Positions 2,696 to 54,912 of a stretch of DNA of 64,000 nt are shown here, in pieces. Where the stretch lies: positions 1-64,000 of the forward strand of contig JAFLUB010000001.1 of the NCBI GenBank assembly GCA_022509025.1, in the 5' to 3' direction. A model generated the notes under the pieces. It had not been told where the DNA came from, ran no database searches, and saw nothing but the letters and a program-made list of their open reading frames with translations. The DNA is from Oscillospiraceae bacterium. GTDB taxonomy: Bacteria > Bacillota > Clostridia > UBA1381. A program made the position numbers and the translations under genes. Each line of letters begins with the position of its first letter. Position 1 is the first letter of the stretch.

Positions 2696-3353
2696 ATTCA
2701 ATATATGAAAATAATTTGTAAATATAGCGTAAAATCCATGAAACAAAAAGGAACTACCATTTAGCCCCAAAAAGGGGGTGTTGCTTAACGCAACACCCCC
2801 ATAAAGATTACTGCTAGTATTATAGCTTGTGAAATAATATTGTGATAGCAATATAAATTTTCCTTATATATGTAAAGTGATATATTAGACACACTATATC
2901 AATCGTTGAATCACTCTATTCTCAAAATGTCTAATGCAAATACAAACAGATCCTCTTATAGCCATAGTTATATCAATAACGCATATTTAAAATCCTTACT
3001 CATGCCTTATTGTAAGTATGTAAGGTGTAGCAATAGAATTGAGGTTGTAGATATTGTTTTTAGCGTGTTGTTGGGGATAGCGTTCGATATAACAGACTAT
3101 CTATAAATTTATTAAAAATGTAATTATAAGTACTGGATTATATTTTTAGGTCTTTAGACATTACTAACACCGCTATAGAGCAATGTCAGTATGTCGCCAA
3201 AATGGCATATATCGTACTGTTCACACAAACGGATAATTAAGTAATACGGTTTATCTGTATATATTTAAAATCTAACTTAATTCATTAATTACTCACCGGA
3301 AAACCATTCATGAAAACAGGCAACATGCATATTATCGTTTATGTTTATCAGTA
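2696..3353. other. Long AT-rich intergenic stretch
   Basis: About 660 bases without a credible gene. The only structure I can support is the hairpin at 2774-2800. Short open frames at 2642-2851 (minus) and 2906-3106 (plus) lack Shine-Dalgarno sites and family resemblance. This is probably decayed sequence next to the transposase remnant. Confidence 0.6.
2774..2800. terminator. GC-rich perfect hairpin
   Basis: GGGGGTGTTGC (2774-2784) and GCAACACCCCC (2790-2800) form a perfect 11-base-pair stem with a 5-base loop. On the minus strand TTTTT follows directly, as in an intrinsic terminator, but no intact gene ends here, so it may be left over from a lost gene. Confidence 0.55.
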
Positions 3354-30915: not shown

Positions 30916-31740
30916 ATGGGAATATTTGACGGATTGCTTCTTTTAAGCGACCTTGACGATACATTGCTTACCACGGATAAAAGGATTTCAGAGGAAAACA
31001 CCCGCGCTATAGAGTATTTCAAAAGCGAGGGAGGACTTTTCACGTTCGCCACGGGGCGTGTTCCGATAGGCGCAAAGCTTTTGCTTGATTATATTCGTCC
31101 GAACGCGCCGATGGTATGCTTTAACGGCGCGGCTGTTTATGATTTTAACGATAACAAAATTCTTTGGTCACGTTCTTTAGGCACCGAAGCCGTTAAGGTG
31201 GTTGAATACATAGATAAAATGTTCGATTTCGTTGGTATTGAAATATGCACGGCAGATAAGATATATTTCTCTAAAGTGAACAATGTTGTAATGGATCATC
31301 AAAAAGCAGAAAAACTGCCTGATAATTTTCTTGATTATCATGAAGTAAAGGAAGAATGGATAAAGGTTCTTTTTATGACCGAGGCGGACAGACTGCACGA
31401 GATAAAAGAAGCAATCACCGCGTCACCGTTTACTAAAGACTATTCATTTGTGCAGTCAGATCCACGCTTTTATGAGCTTTTGCCTAAAGGAGTAAGTAAA
31501 GGCGAGGGACTTTTAAGACTGGCGGATTTACTTGGAATAAATCGCACGCACACTATAGGAATCGGCGATAACGAAAATGACATTGAGCTTGTCAGAAACG
31601 CCGGAACAGGCATTGCCGTGGAAAACGCTGTTGAAGAAGTCAAACGCGTCGCTGACTTTATAACAGTTGATAATAATTCACATGCGATTGACGCTGTTGT
31701 TAATGCCATAAAAAAGCACGAAATAAGCACGGAAAAGTGA
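30916..31740 (+). CDS. Cof-type HAD-IIB sugar phosphatase
   Basis: 274 residues. The HAD motif I is SDLDDTLLTTD (about residue 12), motif II lies in TFATGRV (about 44), and motif III/IV is GIGDNENDIELV (about 215) with the type IIB cap in between. These cytoplasmic enzymes dephosphorylate sugar phosphates, FMN or pyridoxal phosphate; the substrate cannot be told. GAAAGG precedes the ATG. It is a single gene diverging from the helicase. Confidence 0.92.
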   Translation: MGIFDGLLLLSDLDDTLLTTDKRISEENTRAIEYFKSEGGLFTFATGRVPIGAKLLLDYIRPNAPMVCFNGAAVYDFNDNKILWSRSLGTEAVKVVEYIDKMFDFVGIEICTADKIYFSKVNNVVMDHQKAEKLPDNFLDYHEVKEEWIKVLFMTEADRLHEIKEAITASPFTKDYSFVQSDPRFYELLPKGVSKGEGLLRLADLLGINRTHTIGIGDNENDIELVRNAGTGIAVENAVEEVKRVADFITVDNNSHAIDAVVNAIKKHEISTEK

Positions 31741-31780
31741 TTTTATAAAGGCGCGAAATTCAATAATGATAACATTATTA

Positions 31781-31817
31781 AAAAACGACAAGATTCACAT
31801 GAAACTTGTCGTTTTTT
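31781..31817 (+). terminator. Terminator of HAD gene
   Basis: AAAAACGACAAG (31781-31792) pairs with CTTGTCGTTTTT (31805-31816), followed by T. The converging giant gene ends at 31848, so it may serve both. Confidence 0.88.
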
Positions 31818-31847
31818 ACTTACCCGATATTATTCACTTTTCATATA

Positions 31848-34800
31848 TTATTCCGGGATTGCAACACTCTCAAGAGGCGAATAATCGCCGTTCCACAGGA
31901 ATGCGCGAATCTCTGCGCCTGTGTCGTGGAGCGCGCCGGTTCCAACGAACTTTGTTTCGCCCGCGCTAATTGTTTCGGGAACATATTTTACCGAAACAAG
32001 CCTGCCATGTTCGTCATATGCCGCGCTGATAAGAATAATCGTCATTTCGTCTGCACCGTCATTTTTAAACGTGACAGTCGCGTTACCGGTACTGTCAACC
32101 TTAAATTTGCCATCATCAGACGGCGGCTCCTCATCGGTTACCTTCACCGTTACAGTTACCGGTCCGGCAGCCAGATAGTTGGTTTCACCGGATGCTGATA
32201 CTGTAATCACCGCGTCTCCTTTCTCGCCTCCTGCTAAAATCTCCAGTGTCTTCCCTTTCACTGAAACTTCCGCGACGGACGCATTGTCAGATACCGCATT
32301 CAGCACTCCGTCACCGGTATAGGTGATAACCGCAGTATTTACCTGCTCTCCTTGATTCAGATCAAATGTGAAGGAACTCGGTTCTACGCTAAGCTTTGCG
32401 GGGGCTTTGACAATTTCAAATTCCTTTTCGGCATTTCCGGTATAGTTTCCTTTAAAACCAAGCTTTGCCGTGGCTATGCCAGCATCCACGTTATCCGAAC
32501 AGGTGAGTGTGTAATCCGATCCCTCTGTTAGCTCCACGCCTTTGAACAGCGCTTTCACTGAGGGTTCAATGGGCGAGCCCGTATATGTGACCGGATCAAT
32601 ATCCATAATCTCTACACGCTCACTTTGGGCTGGCAATACTTCAAAGACTATAATCTCCTCTGCGTCAGAGGCTTCATTCTTCCATGGATAATCCGCGATT
32701 TTTTTGACACTGACCTTATATACACCCGCGTCCTTAGCCACAGCATTGCCAATTTCATCAAGTGAGCAACCTTCTGTTATAGGAGTAAATTCATACCCGT
32801 CTGCTGCCAGAATACCGCTTTGCAGCTGTCCGTTATATTCCAGACTGACGCCTGATGGAGTGCTGTCTGCGGCATATTCCGTTTCTCCCTGAACCTCCAC
32901 AACTACCGTGGATTGCACAGCGTTATAGTTCTGTCCCTGCTCGGCTGACAGCGTTAACCGTGTGATACCGCTACCCACACCCTGAACTGTTAACATGTTG
33001 CCGTCTATCCGCGCTGTTGCCACCCCTTGGTCCTCCGATGTCACGGCAATACTTTCATCATTGTCTCCGCTGTATATAATGCGTACAGATATGGAATCTG
33101 TATCATCTTTTAAGAAGATACCGGTCTTTTCGACCGACAGAATAGCTTCAGCCTGGTCGATGGAATAGGAAATCTGCTTATCCTGTCCGGTTCCGTCCTC
33201 CCAGACAAATCCGTCCGCAATCTTGGCAGTCGCAACATATTCTCCCGCATCTGTCGCTGTATTGCCGGTAATCGTATAATGACCGTTTACTGACGCCGGA
33301 ACGCCGGTCTGGACTCTGCCGTTATAGCGAAGTTCCGATATAGCCTTCGGAATCTGCACCTGTCCATAGCCGTCAACAATCTGAAATGTACCGGAAAGAG
33401 AGCCGAGATAATCGTTGACGCCATCAATATAGATTTTAGCTGTTCCAACTGCGTTGTTGTCCTCATAGCGTATCACATAATCTTTGCCCGGCGTCATGAT
33501 TGAACTATCATAACTCACCTGCGGCAAAGGCATAATCTCATTTTTGTCATATGCCTGTGCAGGAATAGCGCCTATAAACCCATGCTCTTCCAGGTTGTAG
33601 TAAATACGGAATGGCACTGAACTCGTTCCGCTGCAACGGTTGATACCCTTAATCGTCATGTAGGCAGTTCCCGCATTGACGTTATCTGTAAACGTGATAA
33701 CATAGTCGCCCTGCTCAGATTCAGTATTCGGTGCCTCTGTCAGGACAGTTCCGTCCGGAGCTGTAATCTTGATTTCCGGAATGATGGCTGACCCTGTATA
33801 ATACTGGCCTCCCGCCTCATCAATGCCGGTAATATCAATGTCACAGTTATACAGGAAATAATCCGTGTCTCCATACTTCTCCATCAGCTTTTCTAACGCT
33901 GCCGCCGCATCAATTGCGCCGGCGCTGCCTGTGGCATTGCCCCGGTAATTCGGTTTCCCAACCATGGAATGTGCCGTTGACTGGATTATATCCACCACAT
34001 CATCCGGATGAACACCGGGAACCGCCGCAAACATCAGAGCCGCAATACCCGATACTAATGGCGACGCCATGGATGTACCGGAAAATGCCTCATAACCGTC
34101 GCTGCCAATGGTAGAATATATATTGTCGCCCGGAGCCGAAATGTCCTTATATTGATTGTAATCAGACCAGAAGGAGTCGCCGCCATTCTGATCCAAGCTG
34201 GTAACAGAGAAAACGCAGTCCAAATCTGACGGTATGAAGTAAGAGGTCATCGGCATTCCGTTTCGTCCGTTACCGCCTGCGGCCACTGTCAGCACCTGGT
34301 AATTCTCAAGCAAATCGGCAATTGCCTGTTCCATGGCAACGTCAGAATCTTCCTCCAGAAAAGCATATCCGCCCAGACTCATGTTTACCACGCGGAGATC
34401 GTTGAGTTCTCCTGATTCAATAAGAGAGGCAAGGTACATGTATGCTTTTACAATATCGCTGGTATAAGCGTTTTCGCCGATATCATCAAACACCTTAATC
34501 GGCAGTATGTTCGCGTTATAGCTGGCGCCCGCGACACCAATGTTGTTGTCTGCAACAGCGCCTACGATTCCGCAGACATGCGTACCGTGTTCTCCGGGGT
34601 CAGACATAACATGGGATTCATTATAAGCGTCCCACATATGTTCCGTATCAATATTGGCCTTCAGGTCAGGATGATTTACCTCGCATCCGGTATCCAGCAC
34701 GGCAACTGTGACACTGCCTTCTACCTTTGCGGTATTCCACGCTTCATATACGCTAGCGCCGGAGGAACCTCCATTTTCACTGTACGCCTCTAAATAATAC

Positions 34801-37800
34801 TGCATCTCGGATTGCGGATCGTTAGTTTGGGCTAAGGTGCTTATTTCCGGATTTTCTACCGTGTGATAGATATAATTCGGCTGCGCATATATCCCATCCT
34901 GCTTGTTCAGTTGATCAATCAGTTCTTCGGTTTGGCTTTCGTCCGCAACTTCGATGACCGCAATATCAATGCTGTCTGCTCCAATATCCTCCGCAATAAT
35001 CTCCGTAGACAGGATTGGAATATCGAAAGTCTCCTCTTTCTGCTCAGCCGACATCAGAGAAAACGTCGCCGGCTTTTTTTCGTATACAACGAGGATTTCA
35101 CCAGGAACACTTTCCCTCTGCGCCGTTTCCGCTGCGTCCGCATCTCTATCCGGCTTAGCGTTTATAGGTCGGCTGTCAAAAACGATTCCTGGCTGGAACA
35201 GATTCCAAGGTTCAGACGCCTGAATGCTAAAGAATGTCTTCTCTTCTGCTTCAAGTATCCGGAAGCTTGCTGTAGCCGTTCCGGTGACATTTCGTTTGTC
35301 CCGTCCGTTAATGGTGATATTGCATACGCCTGTTTCTGTCTTATCGTCATAGACGACCGTATATTCCGATTCGGGTATGACAACATTTCCGATATGTACG
35401 ACCATATCATCCTGGTATATGCTCTTCCCTGCCGTCTTATTCTTGACACCTTCTATCGTGGCATTCTCCAGAGATGCCGGTGCGATCGTCCAATGAATAT
35501 TCCTCGGCTCTGCGTCTCCCGTATCACTCCATACATATCCGGGCTCGACTTTAGCTATCACCCAGTAGTCGCCCGCGTTTACGCCGACAGACGCTCCCTC
35601 TGCGTTAACCGAAGGACCTTCAAGCGTATATCCCATGCCCGCCGTGACGCCAATCTGTTTGCTTCCGTTATAAACCAGTCCGGTTTTCGGTATCGGCGCC
35701 GCGGGGACGACATTTGCCTTGGAGTTATTGACTACACTTACATAAAAACTGATCTCGTCAGCGGCATATGTGTTATCGCTTTCTTCATCAGCTATGGTGA
35801 TAAAGGTCGTTCCGACTTTACGCGCCGTAATGTCCAATGTATAAGTGGTCTCACTGGCTTTGCTTTCTTGCTTGGTGAGCTTAACATTTGCCACCTTATC
35901 GTCGGAGGACGATAACGTGAGGTCTCCCGCTCCGTGATGGGAAAGCCGGAAGAGAGCTGTTTTCGTGTTACTATCGCCAATATCCAAAATGACATCTTCT
36001 GTATCAGCTTCAATGAACGCCGGCAATTTCGTAATGTGCCATGTTATGGTCTTGGGATCTGTATCGCCATCAGCATTCCACGCATAGCCCTTATTCGGAG
36101 TGGCTGTAACAGTGTATTCTCCGGCATCTGTGGCAACGGCAGTTCCTTTGAGTGTGATATACTCGGGGACTGCTGCCACACCCAATTGAGGCGCTCCGTT
36201 ATAAACGTGATCCGTCCCTCGGGGAATGTCAACAATAATGCGGTCATCTGATACTTCGCCCACATTGACATAGAGAAGCTCATGCGCGTCCGTATAATTC
36301 TTGCCGCCCGTGGCTTCCAGATGCAAGAACGAGAAACCCCGTCCTTTCGGAGAGATGGTCAGCGTATAATGACCGGATTCCACTTCCTTCAATTCGGACA
36401 CTTCTGCAATCGACGTATCCGATATCCGGGCGGTAAGTTTTCCGTCTCCCGGATAAAAGATATCAAGCGTTACAGAATTCTGCGTCAGTTTATCGGAAGC
36501 ATACGCAAGCGAAGCCGCTAAAGGCGCAGTGATACTGCCTTCCGTCGGAATGATATTAAAATGTATTGTTTCGGAGCCCTGAATATATGTATTTCCATTA
36601 TTCTGGCGGGCTTCAATGTTAACAGCGGCTGTTCCCGTTTCAATGTTATCCGCATATGTGACAGTATAGCACTCTTTCGGAATCTCAAAATCTCCCAGCT
36701 TTATGACAGGAGACGGCGTAATCTCAGAGCCGGTATATACCTGATCTGCAATCTTGCTGATATCCGCTTTGGAGAGTTCCACCTTACTGATTTCCCATTG
36801 CACGTTAATCGTTGAAATATCTCCGTCCTTATTCCATGCGTAGCCATCATTAGGGGTGACACGGGCATAGTAGACGCCTGGCAGGGTCTCCTGATGACCT
36901 GTTATAGTATACGCCTTATTCTCCTCAACACCGGTCTGCAGCGAGCCGTTATAGGTCAGCGTTTTTCCGTTCGGAGCATCTATGACATCAAAATCCAGGC
37001 TTCGGAGGATGGAGAACGTGCAGGTCTGCGAGCCCGTCAGGTTGCCGTTATCAGATGGAGTGATATACATATTTGCTATTCCAAGCTCCCTGTTGTTATC
37101 ATATGTAATTGTATAATCGTCTTCCGGTATTATTGCTCCCGCAGCGTTTTTCAGAACAATGTCCTGTGTCAGCTCCTCGCCGTTTGCGTACTGCTTTGCA
37201 GTCAGACCGTTGACCACCAGATCCTCAATGTTAGCGGGAACGATTTGAACTTTCACATCGAGGCCAGCCATGTAATTGATTTTTCCGGTCAGTCTCGCCG
37301 TATAACTGCCGACGTTTTGCGGCACACCATAATTATATGCAACCGAAAAATTCTCCCCCTGCACCAAATCCACGCCGTAAGGATTTTGCAAAACGAAGGT
37401 CGGCTTCTGCACACTGCCGTTGTAAATTAGCGTATAATCTCCAATCAGGGTGCAATCACGTAATGAAATATCCGTAATCTTAAAACTATTTGATGCTTTA
37501 CCGCCATAGTTTCCTTTTCCGGTCACGGTAATGGTTGGATTGGTATTGCTTGCATTTATATTGTTGGAATACGTGACATCATAATCAATGCCCTTTTCCA
37601 GAGTAACACCGTTGTGCTTAACCGTTACCGGAGGCTCGATGGGCTTGCCGGTATAGGTATACGAACCATCTCCATACGTGATAGAGACTGCGCCGCCCGA
37701 CATAGACGGATTGATTATCTGAGTCGAGATACTCCAGGTGTACGTTCGATCGTGACGTTGGATAGTTGTCAATTCACTTTTCCATGCATAGCCGCTTTTC

Positions 37801-40800
37801 AGGGAAATCGTTGCCCTATAAGTACCCGCGTCTGTCGCTTCGATATCACCGTGGATTACAATACCTTCCAGTGTTTGTTCCGGAATATCAACGACTCGAT
37901 ACACTTGACGGTTATAAATCCGCTCACCGTTGACCAGCTTCGGAGGCTCCAGCTTGATATAATCGTCTCCGACTTCAACTTCGATTTTCACTTCATCGGC
38001 ACTACGATAAACGGATTCGTCATTGCTGGAAGCCTTCAAAATCAGATTTACGGTTCCGACATTCTTTGGCGAAAGGGTAATGGTGTAAAATTTCGTGTTA
38101 CCATCTTCGTGATTCAATGTGATCTCGGCAGTGACAGCATTTGAATCGCCGTTGCCCAGCTCCAGCTCTCCATCGCCCTTTACCTCAACCTGTATTGGCA
38201 GCGACTCCTGATCTTTCACCAGACGGATTTTCGTCTCGTCAGTGAGAATCTCCACCTTTTCCAAATCAATGGAAAAGGTATCTTCAACCGTTTTACCATG
38301 ATAATCACTGTTTTCAGGGAATATGGCCTCTACAACATAGTTGCCCTTTTCTGTCGGGCATTCATTCAGCGGTGTACCGTCCTCTGTCTTATAACTGATT
38401 TTGGCATCAGCTATGTTGTGAGTCTTTGACGTGAGGACAACTTCGTTCGGCTCATGTCCGACATACCAGTCATCCAGACTTATGGAGACATCCGCATCAC
38501 CCTTATCCACCGTAAAATCAAAGGTAGCGGTATTGCCTGCATAATTGCCTACCGGCAAAGCCTTTATTGTAGCCTTACCTGCATGATGAGCTGTTGCCAC
38601 ACCTGTTTCCGGATCAATCGAAATTCGTTCCGGGTCAGAGGATTCAAACCGAACCCGTACATCTTTAGGTGTAGTCTCTACTTTAAACTCCACCGTCGGC
38701 TCTTCCGGGGTCAGCTTGACTGAGTTCTTCGTGTCGTCGGTAAAGTTGATATGAACATATGGTTCAATGAGCGCATATGTATAGTTGTTCCAGTCGGCAT
38801 CATAATCGTCAACCACCGCCAAATTGGTGGAATTAACCGCCGCGCGAACCTGATGGCTATAAGCAGGGGCGATACTGGGTGGTGTCGCAAACACGACTTG
38901 CTTATTGGCAGTCGCCGTAAAATGCGTCGCTATGTCGTCATCCTCCGCATCCTGCCGGCGTTTCTCATACTGAATCGGTTCATCTGTCCCGGTGTAGGCG
39001 AGGGACGTCAGGTTTTTCGCTTCTATGCTTGTGGTTTTAAAGTCTTCAATATCGGAAAAATCCTTGTCTGAGAGTTGTGGGCTCACATAACCAATGGTCT
39101 TACCACCACTTATCTCTATATTATCTGCGCTATATGCGGGGAGCGTACTGTTGTTATACGATACGCCGACCCCTTTGCCTGTAATCGTACGCACAAATGC
39201 TTTATCGGATATGGAGAGGGTGCCCTTTCCGGCATTCACGCCGCCGAAAGAATAAATCTGGCTGTTGCCGCCAAACGATATATTGGCATGTGCCTCCGGC
39301 GTTTTTGTCGTATCCACACCAAGCGCTGTATCGGCATTCTCCCACTCTCCCTGAATTCTGGTTAAAACAATTCCGCCGGTGACAGAGATATTACCGTTGT
39401 TTTCCACCAGTAGTCCGCCGTTAGTCTGGAAGAATCCGCCGGTCATGTCGAAGGATTTTTTCACCACAACAGCGTAATGAGTAGACGTAGTCTTACGCCA
39501 ATAGCTGCCAAAGTTGGCAACAACACCGTTCTTCATTTCGATTTCATTCGCATAAATGGCGTAGGAGTGGGTGGACTCCAGCTGCAGAACCCGATCTACG
39601 TCATAAGGCGCTTCAATGATAACCTTGTCTGCATGAACACCATAGGAGTTTTTGCCGGTTGTCGTATCCGGGTCGGTATCATATCCGGCGTCACAATAAA
39701 CAGAACCGCCATTAAATGTGAATGTTCCTGTATTACCGCAGGAAAACGCGTTTCCAAAGTAGGAGACAGCTTGGATATCGCCGTCCTTGATTGTGATATC
39801 ACAAGACGCACCATTTTTAATATCATCGTAATGGACGCCAAAGGAAGGAGATCCTGCCGGTTCATTGGATTTGTCTTTATAAATATCTCCGCGAAATATC
39901 GCCGGCGGCCAGGCCGTCGCATGTACCTCGCCGCCTGTGATTGTAATACTGCTCTTTCCCTTAGAGCCGTGTCCCGCGCCAATGGCTGCGCCAAAGGAGG
40001 ACTCGCAGTTAACGTAGCCGCCGGCTATGACAATGTTGTTCGCCGCTCCGCCGGTGCCTGCGCCAATGGCGGCGCCGTAGTTGTTGGTGAAGCCGCCGTA
40101 ATACTTCGTGTAGTCCGTTGTGGTTGAGCAGCCAATACGCCCTGCATTGAGGGTAATGTTGCTTGTACTATGACCGTCGGAAGAACCTATAGCTGCAGCG
40201 CCTCGTTTTGTTTCCGGATCAGACCATCCGCCATTTACATGCAACCTGCCGGGGCCTTGGATAATGAGCTGTCCCGTATGATCCTCATTCTTTTCGATGC
40301 CGGCGCGATCCTTGCCGCCATAGATACAATTCAAATAGTCCTCGTGAGCCCCTTCGTTCTGGACGTTGATAATGACATCACCCGTTTTGCCCGTTATCTC
40401 GATACCGGCTCTTCCGGGTTCAAGGTCTGCCGCCGTTCCATTCTCAACGTTCTCTTCTGTCAATTGACCGACATAGGCATAAATATGAACGGTATTCAGC
40501 GTCAGATTTGCTCCTTTAGGAGAATCAATGATCAAAGATGTCTTGTGAGGGTCAGAATATATATTATAGCGGTCTTTGATGGTCAAAGGGGTATTCGTCT
40601 TAATTGTTATAATATCCTTTTCCTCGTCATAGGTAAAATCTGTGTCCTTGACCCCGTTGAAAACTACCAAAGATCCCATGCTTGTTATTGCCGCCGTTGC
40701 GTTAAACGCGAAATCTGCCTCCGATATCGGCTGTTCTTCCACGTCCTCAGAACTATTCTCTGCATCATTCGTAGCTTCTAACTCTGAATACTCCGCAGAA

Positions 40801-40922
40801 TCGTCATTCGCCGCGACGGGATTATCTAATATGCCCTGTGCATATGCAGCAGTTGAATTCAACATCAACGCGCATGACAAAACAATGGTCAAAACAGCAT
40901 TCATAACTTTTTTTGCTATCAT
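31848..40922 (-). CDS. Giant secreted Ig-like repeat protein with subtilisin (S8) domain
   Basis: 3024 residues. Signal peptide (1-28). About 75-640: Gly/Asn-rich repeated strands (ITGGEV, IKDGDI) like a right-handed beta helix or Cthe_2159-type carbohydrate-binding head. About 640-1930: tandem Ig-like modules of two kinds, one with YTGxxI(E/T)P and F.I, one with YNGS.Q.GV, DAGEY and GYAWN. About 1940-2020: an I9-like propeptide ending YAQPNYIYH. About 2060-2330: S8 protease with Asp in VAVLDTG (about 2077), His in HGTHVCG (about 2113), and Ser in SGTSMASPL (about 2284). About 2350-2950: more Ig-like repeats. The last 70 residues form a module ending in AFLWNGDYSPL that resembles the end of the galactanase at 53169. 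No SLH or LPXTG anchor. GGAGGG precedes the ATG. Codons look richer in G and C than in neighbours, hinting at transfer. Confidence 0.85.
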   Translation of the reverse strand: MIAKKVMNAVLTIVLSCALMLNSTAAYAQGILDNPVAANDDSAEYSELEATNDAENSSEDVEEQPISEADFAFNATAAITSMGSLVVFNGVKDTDFTYDEEKDIITIKTNTPLTIKDRYNIYSDPHKTSLIIDSPKGANLTLNTVHIYAYVGQLTEENVENGTAADLEPGRAGIEITGKTGDVIINVQNEGAHEDYLNCIYGGKDRAGIEKNEDHTGQLIIQGPGRLHVNGGWSDPETKRGAAAIGSSDGHSTSNITLNAGRIGCSTTTDYTKYYGGFTNNYGAAIGAGTGGAANNIVIAGGYVNCESSFGAAIGAGHGSKGKSSITITGGEVHATAWPPAIFRGDIYKDKSNEPAGSPSFGVHYDDIKNGASCDITIKDGDIQAVSYFGNAFSCGNTGTFTFNGGSVYCDAGYDTDPDTTTGKNSYGVHADKVIIEAPYDVDRVLQLESTHSYAIYANEIEMKNGVVANFGSYWRKTTSTHYAVVVKKSFDMTGGFFQTNGGLLVENNGNISVTGGIVLTRIQGEWENADTALGVDTTKTPEAHANISFGGNSQIYSFGGVNAGKGTLSISDKAFVRTITGKGVGVSYNNSTLPAYSADNIEISGGKTIGYVSPQLSDKDFSDIEDFKTTSIEAKNLTSLAYTGTDEPIQYEKRRQDAEDDDIATHFTATANKQVVFATPPSIAPAYSHQVRAAVNSTNLAVVDDYDADWNNYTYALIEPYVHINFTDDTKNSVKLTPEEPTVEFKVETTPKDVRVRFESSDPERISIDPETGVATAHHAGKATIKALPVGNYAGNTATFDFTVDKGDADVSISLDDWYVGHEPNEVVLTSKTHNIADAKISYKTEDGTPLNECPTEKGNYVVEAIFPENSDYHGKTVEDTFSIDLEKVEILTDETKIRLVKDQESLPIQVEVKGDGELELGNGDSNAVTAEITLNHEDGNTKFYTITLSPKNVGTVNLILKASSNDESVYRSADEVKIEVEVGDDYIKLEPPKLVNGERIYNRQVYRVVDIPEQTLEGIVIHGDIEATDAGTYRATISLKSGYAWKSELTTIQRHDRTYTWSISTQIINPSMSGGAVSITYGDGSYTYTGKPIEPPVTVKHNGVTLEKGIDYDVTYSNNINASNTNPTITVTGKGNYGGKASNSFKITDISLRDCTLIGDYTLIYNGSVQKPTFVLQNPYGVDLVQGENFSVAYNYGVPQNVGSYTARLTGKINYMAGLDVKVQIVPANIEDLVVNGLTAKQYANGEELTQDIVLKNAAGAIIPEDDYTITYDNNRELGIANMYITPSDNGNLTGSQTCTFSILRSLDFDVIDAPNGKTLTYNGSLQTGVEENKAYTITGHQETLPGVYYARVTPNDGYAWNKDGDISTINVQWEISKVELSKADISKIADQVYTGSEITPSPVIKLGDFEIPKECYTVTYADNIETGTAAVNIEARQNNGNTYIQGSETIHFNIIPTEGSITAPLAASLAYASDKLTQNSVTLDIFYPGDGKLTARISDTSIAEVSELKEVESGHYTLTISPKGRGFSFLHLEATGGKNYTDAHELLYVNVGEVSDDRIIVDIPRGTDHVYNGAPQLGVAAVPEYITLKGTAVATDAGEYTVTATPNKGYAWNADGDTDPKTITWHITKLPAFIEADTEDVILDIGDSNTKTALFRLSHHGAGDLTLSSSDDKVANVKLTKQESKASETTYTLDITARKVGTTFITIADEESDNTYAADEISFYVSVVNNSKANVVPAAPIPKTGLVYNGSKQIGVTAGMGYTLEGPSVNAEGASVGVNAGDYWVIAKVEPGYVWSDTGDAEPRNIHWTIAPASLENATIEGVKNKTAGKSIYQDDMVVHIGNVVIPESEYTVVYDDKTETGVCNITINGRDKRNVTGTATASFRILEAEEKTFFSIQASEPWNLFQPGIVFDSRPINAKPDRDADAAETAQRESVPGEILVVYEKKPATFSLMSAEQKEETFDIPILSTEIIAEDIGADSIDIAVIEVADESQTEELIDQLNKQDGIYAQPNYIYHTVENPEISTLAQTNDPQSEMQYYLEAYSENGGSSGASVYEAWNTAKVEGSVTVAVLDTGCEVNHPDLKANIDTEHMWDAYNESHVMSDPGEHGTHVCGIVGAVADNNIGVAGASYNANILPIKVFDDIGENAYTSDIVKAYMYLASLIESGELNDLRVVNMSLGGYAFLEEDSDVAMEQAIADLLENYQVLTVAAGGNGRNGMPMTSYFIPSDLDCVFSVTSLDQNGGDSFWSDYNQYKDISAPGDNIYSTIGSDGYEAFSGTSMASPLVSGIAALMFAAVPGVHPDDVVDIIQSTAHSMVGKPNYRGNATGSAGAIDAAAALEKLMEKYGDTDYFLYNCDIDITGIDEAGGQYYTGSAIIPEIKITAPDGTVLTEAPNTESEQGDYVITFTDNVNAGTAYMTIKGINRCSGTSSVPFRIYYNLEEHGFIGAIPAQAYDKNEIMPLPQVSYDSSIMTPGKDYVIRYEDNNAVGTAKIYIDGVNDYLGSLSGTFQIVDGYGQVQIPKAISELRYNGRVQTGVPASVNGHYTITGNTATDAGEYVATAKIADGFVWEDGTGQDKQISYSIDQAEAILSVEKTGIFLKDDTDSISVRIIYSGDNDESIAVTSEDQGVATARIDGNMLTVQGVGSGITRLTLSAEQGQNYNAVQSTVVVEVQGETEYAADSTPSGVSLEYNGQLQSGILAADGYEFTPITEGCSLDEIGNAVAKDAGVYKVSVKKIADYPWKNEASDAEEIIVFEVLPAQSERVEIMDIDPVTYTGSPIEPSVKALFKGVELTEGSDYTLTCSDNVDAGIATAKLGFKGNYTGNAEKEFEIVKAPAKLSVEPSSFTFDLNQGEQVNTAVITYTGDGVLNAVSDNASVAEVSVKGKTLEILAGGEKGDAVITVSASGETNYLAAGPVTVTVKVTDEEPPSDDGKFKVDSTGNATVTFKNDGADEMTIILISAAYDEHGRLVSVKYVPETISAGETKFVGTGALHDTGAEIRAFLWNGDYSPLESVAIPE

Positions 40923-41040
40923 AACTTTCCCTCCTTCGATTGTTGAACGTTTTGTTAAGCTATCATTTATTTTTATCTTTCAATTCCGATTTGTTGATTT
41001 TCCTCATTATATCATTATCACAGAAACATTTCAACCACTT

Positions 41041-41083
41041 ATAAAAATAAAAAGCAACTCGCCATTAAACTGACAAGTCGCTT
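41041..41083 (-). terminator. Terminator of MATE gene
   Basis: On the minus strand AAGCGACTTGTC pairs with GGCGAGTTGCTT (12 pairs with G-U) around an 8-base loop, followed by TTTTTATTTTT. Confidence 0.75.
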
Positions 41084-41103
41084 GTTTTCTATCTGTTATG
41101 CCC

Positions 41104-42453
41104 TTACTTCCTTTTTTGTGTCCGCAGCAATATCATAAAATAAATGCCGCACAAAATAATTTGTACCACCGTGGATGCGGGGGTAGCAAGACCAATATGG
41201 AACAGTGACACCGCCGCCTGTCTGCTCATAAGCCATGAAACAGGCAATCTTACACAGAACGCTCCGATTATACCTTGAAGCATTACAAATGTTGTGCTTC
41301 CGCATCCGTTGAAATAACCTATGAAACAGAACAGGAATGAAGTCAAAAGACAATCAATAGCATATGCTTTCAGATAATCTGCCGCCGCCATAATGATTTC
41401 TGTATCTTTTGCAAATATGCCTGCCAGTATATTCCCATGGAAAAATGTAAAATACCCCATTATAATTCCCACGGCTAAAGAAGAAGCAATACCGCACCAC
41501 AAAGCTTTTCTCGCTCGCTCCGGATTATCTGCGCCTATATTCTGCGCTACAAAAGCTGACATTGACTGCATATATGCTGACGCAACCAACATCAAAAATC
41601 CGCATAGCTTTTCCGCCACTCCTACACCCGCTGATTCAGTTAGCCCCAGACTGTTTACAATAGCGATAATCGCGAGGAAAGAAATGCTTACAAGCAAATC
41701 CTGAAGTGCAATAGGTATGCCGAGTCTCAGAATCTTCTTAATATAAGTGCCGTTGAGCCGAATATACTTTACAGAAAAAGCAAACGGCAATTCCCGTCTG
41801 CGGATAATAACCAAAGAGAGCATCACGCTTATTGCCTGCGCGAATACTGTGGCAATCGCCGCGCCTGACGCTCCCATACCGAAAATAGCTACAAGCAGTA
41901 AGTCGCCGCCTATATTAAGAACACAAGCTATCGCTACTGTTATAAGCGGCATTTTTGAGTCGCCAATCCCTCTGAAAATACTGCCCACCAGATTGTAGGC
42001 AACAATAAAAACAGAACCTGCGGAACAGATAACTATGTAAGAAACAGTTGCGTCAAAAGCTGCCTCCGGAGCGTGCATTACCTGTGCCAGTAACGGCGCG
42101 GTAATAATAGTTATAACTGTAAGCGCGGCAGCAACTATTCCGAACAATCCTATACCGCTGCCGATAATTTTACCAGCTTCCTGCCTCTCCCCGGCGCCGA
42201 TTCTGTTACCCACAAAAACGGTCAGTCCCATCGCCAATCCTGTAATAACTACGGTAATTGATTGCATAAGCTGACTGCCTGTGGAAACTGCTGATACATA
42301 TACATCCGCAAGATTACCGCCGAACTGACCAACTATCAGCAAGTCAACAGCACCATACATGGTCTGCAAAAACAATGCCAGCAGTACCGGCAAGGCAAAA
42401 CTAATCAGCGGTGCAAAAATTCGTCCTTCAGTAAAATTCTGTGTCTGCTTCAT
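41104..42453 (-). CDS. MATE family efflux transporter
   Basis: 449 residues starting at MKQTQNF; GGGAGG lies 6 bases upstream, whereas the frame start at 42522 falls inside the leader terminator. Twelve helices in two halves are seen, with FALPVLLALFLQTMYGAVDLLIVG at the start, as in NorM/MepA/DinF-type pumps that export drugs or toxic organic cations using Na+ or H+ gradients. A leader peptide and transcription terminator lie just upstream (42469-42599), so expression is probably induced by its substrates or by ribosome stalling. Confidence 0.93.
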   Translation of the reverse strand: MKQTQNFTEGRIFAPLISFALPVLLALFLQTMYGAVDLLIVGQFGGNLADVYVSAVSTGSQLMQSITVVITGLAMGLTVFVGNRIGAGERQEAGKIIGSGIGLFGIVAAALTVITIITAPLLAQVMHAPEAAFDATVSYIVICSAGSVFIVAYNLVGSIFRGIGDSKMPLITVAIACVLNIGGDLLLVAIFGMGASGAAIATVFAQAISVMLSLVIIRRRELPFAFSVKYIRLNGTYIKKILRLGIPIALQDLLVSISFLAIIAIVNSLGLTESAGVGVAEKLCGFLMLVASAYMQSMSAFVAQNIGADNPERARKALWCGIASSLAVGIIMGYFTFFHGNILAGIFAKDTEIIMAAADYLKAYAIDCLLTSFLFCFIGYFNGCGSTTFVMLQGIIGAFCVRLPVSWLMSRQAAVSLFHIGLATPASTVVQIILCGIYFMILLRTQKRK

Positions 42454-42468
42454 AAAAATCCTCCCAAA

Positions 42469-42516
42469 CAAAAAACCGAATAAGATTAACCGCACAAATA
42501 CAGTTGCCTTATCCGG
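42469..42516 (-). terminator. Leader terminator (attenuator) of MATE gene
   Basis: On the minus strand CCGGATAAG (complement of 42508-42516) pairs with CTTATTCGG (complement of 42476-42484), followed by TTTTTT and only 16 bases later by the MATE start codon. A second CCGGATAAG lies upstream (complement of 42567-42575), inside the leader peptide frame, and can compete for the same 3' arm. Confidence 0.75.
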
Positions 42517-42536
42517 TATCATCAGTTACGCTGTGA

Positions 42537-42599
42537 TTACCCTCCGGCAAAAGCTTTATGCGACATCTTATCCGGCGTTACATTTACGAATTGCAACAT
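42537..42599 (-). CDS. Putative 20-residue leader peptide of MATE gene
   Basis: A 20-codon frame, ending TPDKMSHKAFAGG and a TAA, starts at an ATG that touches GGAGG, so the spacing is poor and initiation is uncertain. It contains the first of two CCGGATAAG repeats that define the downstream terminator. A ribosome translating or stalled on it would alter leader folding. Role is inferred from arrangement, as for known antibiotic-resistance leader peptides. Confidence 0.4.
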   Translation of the reverse strand: MLQFVNVTPDKMSHKAFAGG

Positions 42600-42747
42600 C
42601 CTCCGATGAACGTAGAAAGTATATCATAATTGTATTTATAAGTCAATAGAAAATCACTTCATAGATAAACAGGAGTTTATAGTAAATTTGATTTTCTATC
42701 AATTGTTTCTTTTACTTTTAAAACAGTGTCTTCAATGGAACAATCCA

Positions 42748-42915
42748 TTATATGCCAAATAAAACTCCTGCCAAAACTCCAACCGTTTCATCTATCTTTA
42801 TATCATTATCTAAAAATACATCTAATACACGCACTTGGTCAACAACAAACTGAATACATCCGCAGATATTCTCAACAACTTTTTCAATAACGAAAATAAA
42901 AGCTCTGATAGTCAA
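42748..42915 (-). CDS. Possible small hydrophobic ORF, unassigned
   Basis: In the gap between the MATE gene and tRNA-Lys a minus-strand frame stays open from within the tRNA terminator to a TAA at 42748. The only usable start I see is a TTG at 42915, giving 55 residues (IRAFIFVIEKVVENICG near the start and VGVLAGVLFGI at the end). There is no good Shine-Dalgarno and no family match. It may be a gene remnant. The rest of 42600-42957 shows nothing else. Confidence 0.22.
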   Translation of the reverse strand: MTIRAFIFVIEKVVENICGCIQFVVDQVRVLDVFLDNDIKIDETVGVLAGVLFGI

Positions 42916-42957
42916 AATATAGTCAGTTGACCTGTTAGCGGTATAATTCAGAACATC

Positions 42958-42993
42958 AAAAAACCGCTCAAACGTAGTGTTTAAGCGGTTTTT
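42958..42993 (-). terminator. Terminator of tRNA-Lys
   Basis: AAAAACCGCT and AGCGGTTTTT arms (42959-42968 and 42984-42993) form a stem extended by CAAAC/GTGTTT, with TTTTTT on the minus strand. Confidence 0.88.
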
Positions 42994-42995
42994 CG

Positions 42996-43071
42996 TGGTA
43001 CGCGATCAGGGGCTCGAACCCTGGACACCCTGATTAAGAGTCAGGTGCTCTACCAACTGAGCTAATCACGC
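42996..43071 (-). tRNA. tRNA-Lys (CTT)
   Basis: Minus-strand cloverleaf: acceptor GCGTGAT, D-arm TAGCTCAGTTGGTAGAGCA, anticodon stem CTGAC loop CTCTTAA giving anticodon CTT, variable loop, T-arm with GTTCGAGCC. The 3' acceptor ATCGCGT pairs using two G-U pairs, and ACCA is encoded at 42996-42999. Confidence 0.93.
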
Positions 43072-53168: not shown

Positions 53169-54806
53169 CTATTTAATTATCGGAGCCAATGTTTCGCCGT
53201 TCCAGAGGAATACTCTGTATGTTCCGTCAGGCTTGTTAAGCTCCAATGTGTCTTCACTGCCGGCAGTCACTTTCTTAGAGTCAATTTTCACACCTGTAAG
53301 CGCGCCGTTTGCATCATATGATGCAACGTAAAGATTTACCTTCTTATCCTCACTCAGACCGTTGTTCACAGTTGCAATTATCTTGTCTGTATCATCAGTA
53401 TATGTGCCTGTAAGCTCCGCTTTCTGAGGGTCATCCTCTCCGGGGTCGTCTTTGCCCGGATCGTCTTTGCCCGGATCGTCCTTTATTGTCGTTCTGAACG
53501 CTTCCACCGCTAAAACTGCCTTACCGTCAAAATCAAACAACGTTGTGTTTTCAACCACGTTTCCGTCAGGCTTATCATCTGACTCTCTAAGCGCCCAGCC
53601 CGAAAGCGACTCATTTTCATTCTGCGGGTCTTCCACATGAATCATACACGGGTCCCAGTAAAGCACGCCAACACAGCGGTTATCATTAACTGTCTGAAGC
53701 TGCTCGAACAGGTCTTTCAGGAAGTCTCTCTGACCTTCCTGTGTAAACGGATATTTCTCATTATAGCCCGGAGCGTTCGCGGTGAGCTGTCCGTCATAAC
53801 CGTTTTTCTTCTTGGCTTTCCAGTTATAGCCTGTTTCCATGATAAGAATGTCCTTACCATATTTTTTTGAGATATTATTACAGAATGACACACACGTTTC
53901 AATAGGATTCTGAGACCACGCCGGATAGTATGACGCGCCTATCACATCAAACTTACCGCCTGCCTTCTGGTAATCATCTATGAACCATGTGAACACACTG
54001 TCTTTTGAACCGTTCGCAAGGTGAATTACTACCTCTGATTCAGGCGATACCTCTTTTACCGCGTCATAGCCACGGTTCAGAATAGCCGCAAGCGCAGACC
54101 AATTCTTGTAGCATTTTATATCATTCGTCTCATCTTTATCACTATCATATACAAGTTCAAATCGTTTACTGTTCATATTCGCGTCAAAAGTGTTCGCAAA
54201 CGGGAAGAACATACCGCCGTTAATCTCATTGCCGAGAGATACATACTTCGGAACAGTACCCTGATTTTTAAGCTTCGTCATTATCTCCTTTGTATAATCA
54301 TAAACCAAATCTCCAAGCTTATCACGTATTTCGGTCATCTGCGCGTTTGACATTGATTTTAAAAATGCGGGATCCTTTACGTCGTAACCCAAGTCATCCT
54401 TTATAGCCTTTACCCATTCAGACGGGATAATCTGACGCTCTCCATTTGACCAGTAATCAGAATAGTTAAACGTAAACTGTATTTCCATTCCGGCTTCTTT
54501 CGCGCGTTTTGAAAGGTCTAAGCAGTCCTTCTCGTCCTGAAATCCTTCCGGTAGATAATATGTACCGTCACCCGTGCCTTTTCCTGGTGTATTGGAAAGA
54601 CGTATACGCGCCATATTCATACCGTTTTCGGCTAAAAACTCAAACGGGTCAACAGGATTGTCGTCAAAATCCTTATACACGCCGCCTAAATCCTCAATGT
54701 AGTTTACCTCTGTCATGTCGCCGCCGGCATAAAAGTCCGCAGCCTGCGCGTGCGCCGCTGTTGCTGTGATAACCGCAACAGCCGCTGCAATAATCATTTT
54801 CTTCAT
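53169..54806 (-). CDS. GH53 endo-beta-1,4-galactanase (arabinogalactanase)
   Basis: 545 residues from MKKMIIAA with a signal peptide cleaved near AQAA. The GH53 barrel (about 25-390) shows FYAGGDMTEV, NMARIRLSNTP, acid/base Glu in SLGNEINGG (about 194) and nucleophile Glu in ILIMETGYNW (about 324), then LYWDP. It cuts beta-1,4-galactan side chains of pectin outside the cell. A DDPGKDDPG linker leads to a C-terminal module ending FLWNGETLAPI, like the end of the giant protein at 31848. The gene has its own promoter (54863), a leader hairpin and a terminator, and lies next to an oligosaccharide importer. Confidence 0.93.
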   Translation of the reverse strand: MKKMIIAAAVAVITATAAHAQAADFYAGGDMTEVNYIEDLGGVYKDFDDNPVDPFEFLAENGMNMARIRLSNTPGKGTGDGTYYLPEGFQDEKDCLDLSKRAKEAGMEIQFTFNYSDYWSNGERQIIPSEWVKAIKDDLGYDVKDPAFLKSMSNAQMTEIRDKLGDLVYDYTKEIMTKLKNQGTVPKYVSLGNEINGGMFFPFANTFDANMNSKRFELVYDSDKDETNDIKCYKNWSALAAILNRGYDAVKEVSPESEVVIHLANGSKDSVFTWFIDDYQKAGGKFDVIGASYYPAWSQNPIETCVSFCNNISKKYGKDILIMETGYNWKAKKKNGYDGQLTANAPGYNEKYPFTQEGQRDFLKDLFEQLQTVNDNRCVGVLYWDPCMIHVEDPQNENESLSGWALRESDDKPDGNVVENTTLFDFDGKAVLAVEAFRTTIKDDPGKDDPGKDDPGEDDPQKAELTGTYTDDTDKIIATVNNGLSEDKKVNLYVASYDANGALTGVKIDSKKVTAGSEDTLELNKPDGTYRVFLWNGETLAPIIK

Positions 54807-54850
54807 AATTAATCTCCATTCCGCCGCCAAGCGGCATAAATTGTTATATT
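54807..54850 (-). promoter_or_regulatory. RBS leader hairpin of galactanase gene
   Basis: TATAACAATTTATG, stem GCCGC/GCGGC with a 3-base loop, then GGAATGGAG and ATG. The clearest example of the leader also seen at 1033, 13130 and 48349. Confidence 0.6.
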
Positions 54851-54862
54851 CATCATTCTTAT

Positions 54863-54891
54863 ATGATAACACATTTTCTGAGAATATACAA
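54863..54891 (-). promoter_or_regulatory. Promoter of galactanase gene
   Basis: TTGTAT (complement of 54886-54891), 17-base spacer, TATCAT (complement of 54863-54868). The leader hairpin begins about 15 bases after it. Confidence 0.6.
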
Positions 54892-54912
54892 TAGTCCGCG
54901 CACAAAATTATT

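Follow-up and report, generated by a model that had tools for sequence, protein, structure and literature searches.

A gene on the minus strand of the window, a 64,000-nucleotide stretch of a contig from an uncultured Oscillospiraceae bacterium, was found to encode a secreted modular protein of 3,024 residues with an internal pro-subtilisin (positions 31848–40922). A signal peptide, a head, a first stalk, a prodomain, an S8 protease domain, a second stalk and an FLWN tail follow one another in this order, and the cassette in the middle has a zymogen fold with a complete catalytic triad. The best-supported account, given a probability of roughly two in three, is that a pro-subtilase splits the giant chain in which it is secreted. 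Its parts are familiar. The protein is an unusual variant of a known self-maturing protease rather than a new system.

The gene begins with an ATG, has a GGAGG ribosome-binding site upstream and continues as one uninterrupted frame of 3,024 codons, the first base of residue i lying at window position 40922−3(i−1). An origin of this frame in an error of assembly or gene calling that joined an adhesin to a subtilase is extremely unlikely. The gene is rich in repeats and breaks the assembly of its ortholog in genome G046, which belongs to another genus; however, the frame is unbroken, base composition is similar along the whole gene, and G046 carries both termini, each at the end of a contig and in matching orientation, with 84–88% DNA identity at both. 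An assembly chimera was rejected on these grounds.

The N-terminal signal peptide proposed in the first-pass annotation was assigned to residues 1–29 (40836–40922, minus strand), with the cut falling between NSTAAYA and QG, and an alignment with locus L048 of G046 shows it to be conserved there. It should be noted that Cys17, following IVLS (IVLSC; window about 40872–40874), resembles a weak lipobox and is also kept in G046. Judged by eye, the sequence favours Sec export with cleavage by SPase I, and a lipoprotein anchor is unlikely. A domain search of the whole protein recognised no wall anchor (LPXTG, SLH or CWB2) in either half, as had been annotated; the sole sorting-like motif, IPKTG at residue 1744, is internal and there is no C-terminal sorting signal. 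With no anchor recognised on either half, the sequence is silent as to which part, if either, leaves the cell.

The S8 subtilisin domain with its C-terminal helix occupies residues 2036–2345 (33888–34817, minus strand), as judged from Pfam, PDB relatives, AlphaFold2 and Foldseek. Peptidase_S8 (PF00082) matched residues 2070–2318 (E 1.9e-43, 149 bits), and the closest solved sequences were thermitase and subtilisins, with E values down to 2.8e-29. Asp2077 (codon 34692–34694), His2112 (34587–34589) and Ser2284 (34071–34073) were located by motif and alignment and are invariant across 36 aligned subtilases; the annotated triad was therefore complete, with its Asp and Ser correctly placed and its His displaced by one residue, from 2112 to 2113. 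The DTG, HGT and GTSM motifs of the family are all present, together with the oxyanion Asn, which was assigned to Asn2218 by the AAxGN motif and is placed one column off by MAFFT. The named S8 equivalogs in NCBIfam (mycosin, PatA, PrtP and others) all scored well below their cut-offs, mycosin giving 157.8 against 278.75. A scan of genome contigs that used the S8 region of this one sequence as query yielded no relative, and none was found among viral contigs.

Immediately ahead of the catalytic domain, both Pfam and the structure model place a prodomain with a β-α-β-β-α-β order (residues about 1928–2020; 34863–35141, minus strand). A propeptide of the I9 type had been annotated near residue 1940; a propeptide is present there, but it is of the fervidolysin type, as I9 models gave no match to it and PF22148 (Fervidolysin_NPro-like), in a search with segment 1921–2040 alone, reached 28.0 bits (residues 1928–2016), above its cut-off of 21. 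A home-made prodomain model also detected it at 2.3e-12, a value obtained with the window sequence among that model's own rows. AlphaFold2 was run on residues 1800–2345 with an alignment of only 36 rows, many of them remote. The resulting model has a pLDDT above 90 over much of the S8 domain, mostly 67–90 over the prodomain (about 1938–2020), and 51–58 over the linker of residues 2021–2035 (34818–34862, minus strand) between these two confident domains. Foldseek searches with the model gave E values down to 3e-25, the matches including solved unprocessed pro-subtilisins and fervidolysin (1r6v). Unautoprocessed pro-subtilisin E (3whi) was matched with a TMt of 0.81–0.82, and both it and pro-Tk-subtilisin were aligned over 412–448 columns, which covers both domains. 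The structure model thus contains the S8 fold and the propeptide that had been proposed at this position, and it agrees with Pfam on an S8 zymogen cassette behind about 1,900 residues of head and stalk.

Since the S8 domain and prodomain are confidently modelled, the linker is of low confidence and the Foldseek matches include unprocessed pro-subtilisins, self-cleavage at about residues 2021–2035 is likely. A cut just before residue 2034 would give parts computed at about 216 and 105 kDa. No recognisable motif was found at the predicted site, and its position agrees with the start of mature thermitase, a few residues before NDP; this motif begins at residue 2034 here. A reading without self-processing, in which the cassette lacks activity or the chain remains intact and the S8 domain serves as a structural module, is improbable. 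It draws on the G046 ortholog, whose assembled part comprises residues up to about 80 and from 2315, leaving triad and prodomain outside; a search for the unassembled middle returned only other subtilases and module matches. Against it stand the intact triad and oxyanion Asn, the retained prodomain and the purifying selection on the C-terminal part (dN/dS 0.21 over 709 codons between the window gene and the G046 copy).

For the favoured account, splitting by the internal pro-subtilase, we infer the following course of cleavage and fate of the parts. The chain would first be exported, after which the prodomain would fold the subtilisin domain and fill its active site, and the protease would then cut the linker. 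The N-terminal part would consist of head, stalk 1 and prodomain, and the C-terminal part of protease, stalk 2 and FLWN tail, the two being initially held together by the contact between prodomain and active site. Full protease activity would be expected once the prodomain is degraded or gone. Most likely the head would serve to place the protease on fibre, mucus, a surface or a similar target, and would do more than act as a shed adhesin.

It had been suggested that self-cleavage frees the 2,000-residue head as an adhesin, with the protease acting mainly as scissors. The module order and zymogen fold permit this, but it is unlikely and the claim was left unsupported: nothing points to adhesion, and the released part would still bear an inhibitory prodomain. 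In subtilases the prodomain normally remains attached to the active site once the cut has been made. In another protein of the same class, described below, the N-terminal part carries an SLH anchor, such that the protease and not the head would leave. WprA, the cell-wall protease of Bacillus subtilis, is moreover reported to remain in complex with its own N-terminal product, going by the title of a paper cited in PMC2323362. The same title is a precedent for a sub-case of the favoured account, in which the cleaved protein persists as a stable, non-covalent two-chain complex and functions as a single long unit with a nick in its stalk. Stalk modules of the same types on the two sides of the protease also speak for such a unit, but prodomains are commonly degraded by subtilisins, and this outcome is possible without being the expected one.

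According to PMC2323362, WprA is processed to CWBP23 and CWBP52. Like the giant protein as predicted here, it is a secreted subtilase precursor from which processing gives a serine protease along with an N-terminal product. It differs in that its N-terminal product is 23 kDa and wall-bound, whereas that of the giant protein is predicted at about 216 kDa and would contain an Ig-like stalk, no part that binds the wall having been recognised in it.

In the head, residues about 30–738 (38709–40835, minus strand), no sequence match was found in Pfam or PDB. A single-sequence structure model was all-beta at low confidence (pLDDT 46) and returned no PDB match with E ≤ 0.001. The model was too poor to be relied on for the fold; the beta-helix-like head of the first-pass annotation is unconfirmed and may be regarded as a possibility. 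In a search of 70 family genomes and a class-wide sample of 391, G046 alone gave a good match to the head, clear at its N-terminus, with two weak others at about 1e-5.

Stalk 1 (residues 739–1893; 35244–38708, minus strand) and stalk 2 (residues 2346–2935; 32118–33887, minus strand) are built of Ig-like modules of the same three recurring types. Only one module was above the Pfam cut-off (Big_2 at 742–789), and home-made models of the three types gave 7 A-type, 6 B-type and 5 C-type matches, distributed on both sides of the protease. This agrees with the many Ig-like repeats annotated before and after the protease, and it indicates a single continuous stalk into which the pro-S8 cassette is set. 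The protein ends in an FLWN module of about 90 residues (2936–3024; 31851–32117, minus strand), which also ends a GH53 protein of the window (53169–54905; a weak match, 5.4e-05) and secreted proteins in relatives. By these sequence matches it is a general accessory module common to secreted enzymes, and its occurrence at the end of other secreted proteins of these bacteria makes it no evidence of adhesion.

In 117 S8 reading frames from the loci collected, a set in which good matches and long frames are over-represented and which includes a few copies of the window gene, the S8 domain usually lay near the N-terminus; besides the protein of the window, three distinct proteins had it beyond residue 600. 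A paralog in the same genome (L001) has the ordinary order of signal peptide, prodomain, S8, Ig and tail. Subtilases of the fervidolysin/thermitase type carry their prodomain right after the signal peptide; the giant protein shares with them a fervidolysin-type prodomain directly ahead of S8 but has about 1,900 residues preceding it. Large surface or secreted subtilases such as PrtP, C5a peptidase, NalP and SphB1 have many accessory domains behind the protease and a wall anchor or beta-barrel; the giant protein is likewise large and rich in accessory domains, but most of these precede the protease and no anchor was recognised.

A similar arrangement was found in genome G266 of the same class (L130:4124–9694, plus strand), which encodes three SLH domains, a stalk, a PF22148 prodomain, S8 and a SpaA-like domain. 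It resembles the giant protein in having a large head and stalk ahead of prodomain and S8, and differs in its stalk domains, its SLH wall anchor in the head and its length of about 1,250 residues before the prodomain. On sequence grounds, a large head ahead of a pro-subtilase recurs in Clostridia, L130 being an independent case. In three other frames (L126:120–7133, minus strand; L057:502–4236, plus strand; L018:3–1937, plus strand) a segment resembling a fervidolysin-type prodomain was detected at the very C-terminus, with none found before S8. The home-made model gave these iE values of 8.8e-10, 0.0024 and 0.079, respectively, while PF22148 gave E 0.007 for L126 and 0.009 for L057, both below its cut-off; their prodomain order is possibly permuted. 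L126 also carries RCC1 and Kelch propeller domains ahead of S8. A literature search for self-processing fusions of subtilase and adhesin returned nothing relevant, and such fusions may still exist elsewhere.

The comparisons also show that the gene has passed by horizontal transfer from one genus to another within the same bacterial family. The block in common with G046 (31780–40962, minus strand) comprises the gene, its ribosome-binding site region and a terminator-like hairpin with a T-run downstream of the stop (31780–31818, minus strand), without the flanking genes. Homology ends at this hairpin on one side and about 40 bases before the start codon on the other. Over the 709 codons compared, dS was 0.49 with 82% amino acid identity, whereas in the flanking SNF2 gene of the same genome pair synonymous sites were saturated and amino acid identity was 55%; vertical inheritance was rejected on this comparison. 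In sister species of the genus, the gene beside the HAD hydrolase is ThiF-like in G015 and G001 and is not the giant gene, and G005 has other genes between HAD and tRNA-Lys. The gene content of window 31740–42996, from the HAD hydrolase to tRNA-Lys, differs in a sister genome (L077).

The codons had been noted as more GC-rich than those of neighbouring genes, and this held: GC is 48.1% against a neighbour mean of 43.7%, and of the larger genes that were compared, the giant gene (1.159) and a MatE gene (1.160) had the poorest codon fit. The MatE gene (41104–42522), in the interval between HAD and tRNA-Lys, is as atypical in codon usage and lies outside the block in common with G046. The GC-rich codons fit horizontal transfer, given that the only ortholog found is in another genus at a dS of 0.49, sharp edges of homology and sister genomes without the gene at this site. 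Upstream of the N-terminal fragment in G046, low-GC genes resembling large serine recombinases were detected (L048:9725–14728), which suggests a mobile element nearby.

A more far-reaching, and doubtful, proposal is that this giant protein is located at the surface, spreads horizontally and has, in the pro-subtilisin cassette of its Ig-like stalk, a latch of its own: the chain would nick itself, the prodomain would hold the halves together, and its loss on the target would free the protease or the 2,000-residue head. The transfer implies that a gene of this kind, 9 kb long, can pass from one genus to another as a unit complete in itself. If the proposed self-splitting is real, a pro-protease cassette can sit in a very long stalk and split the chain after export.
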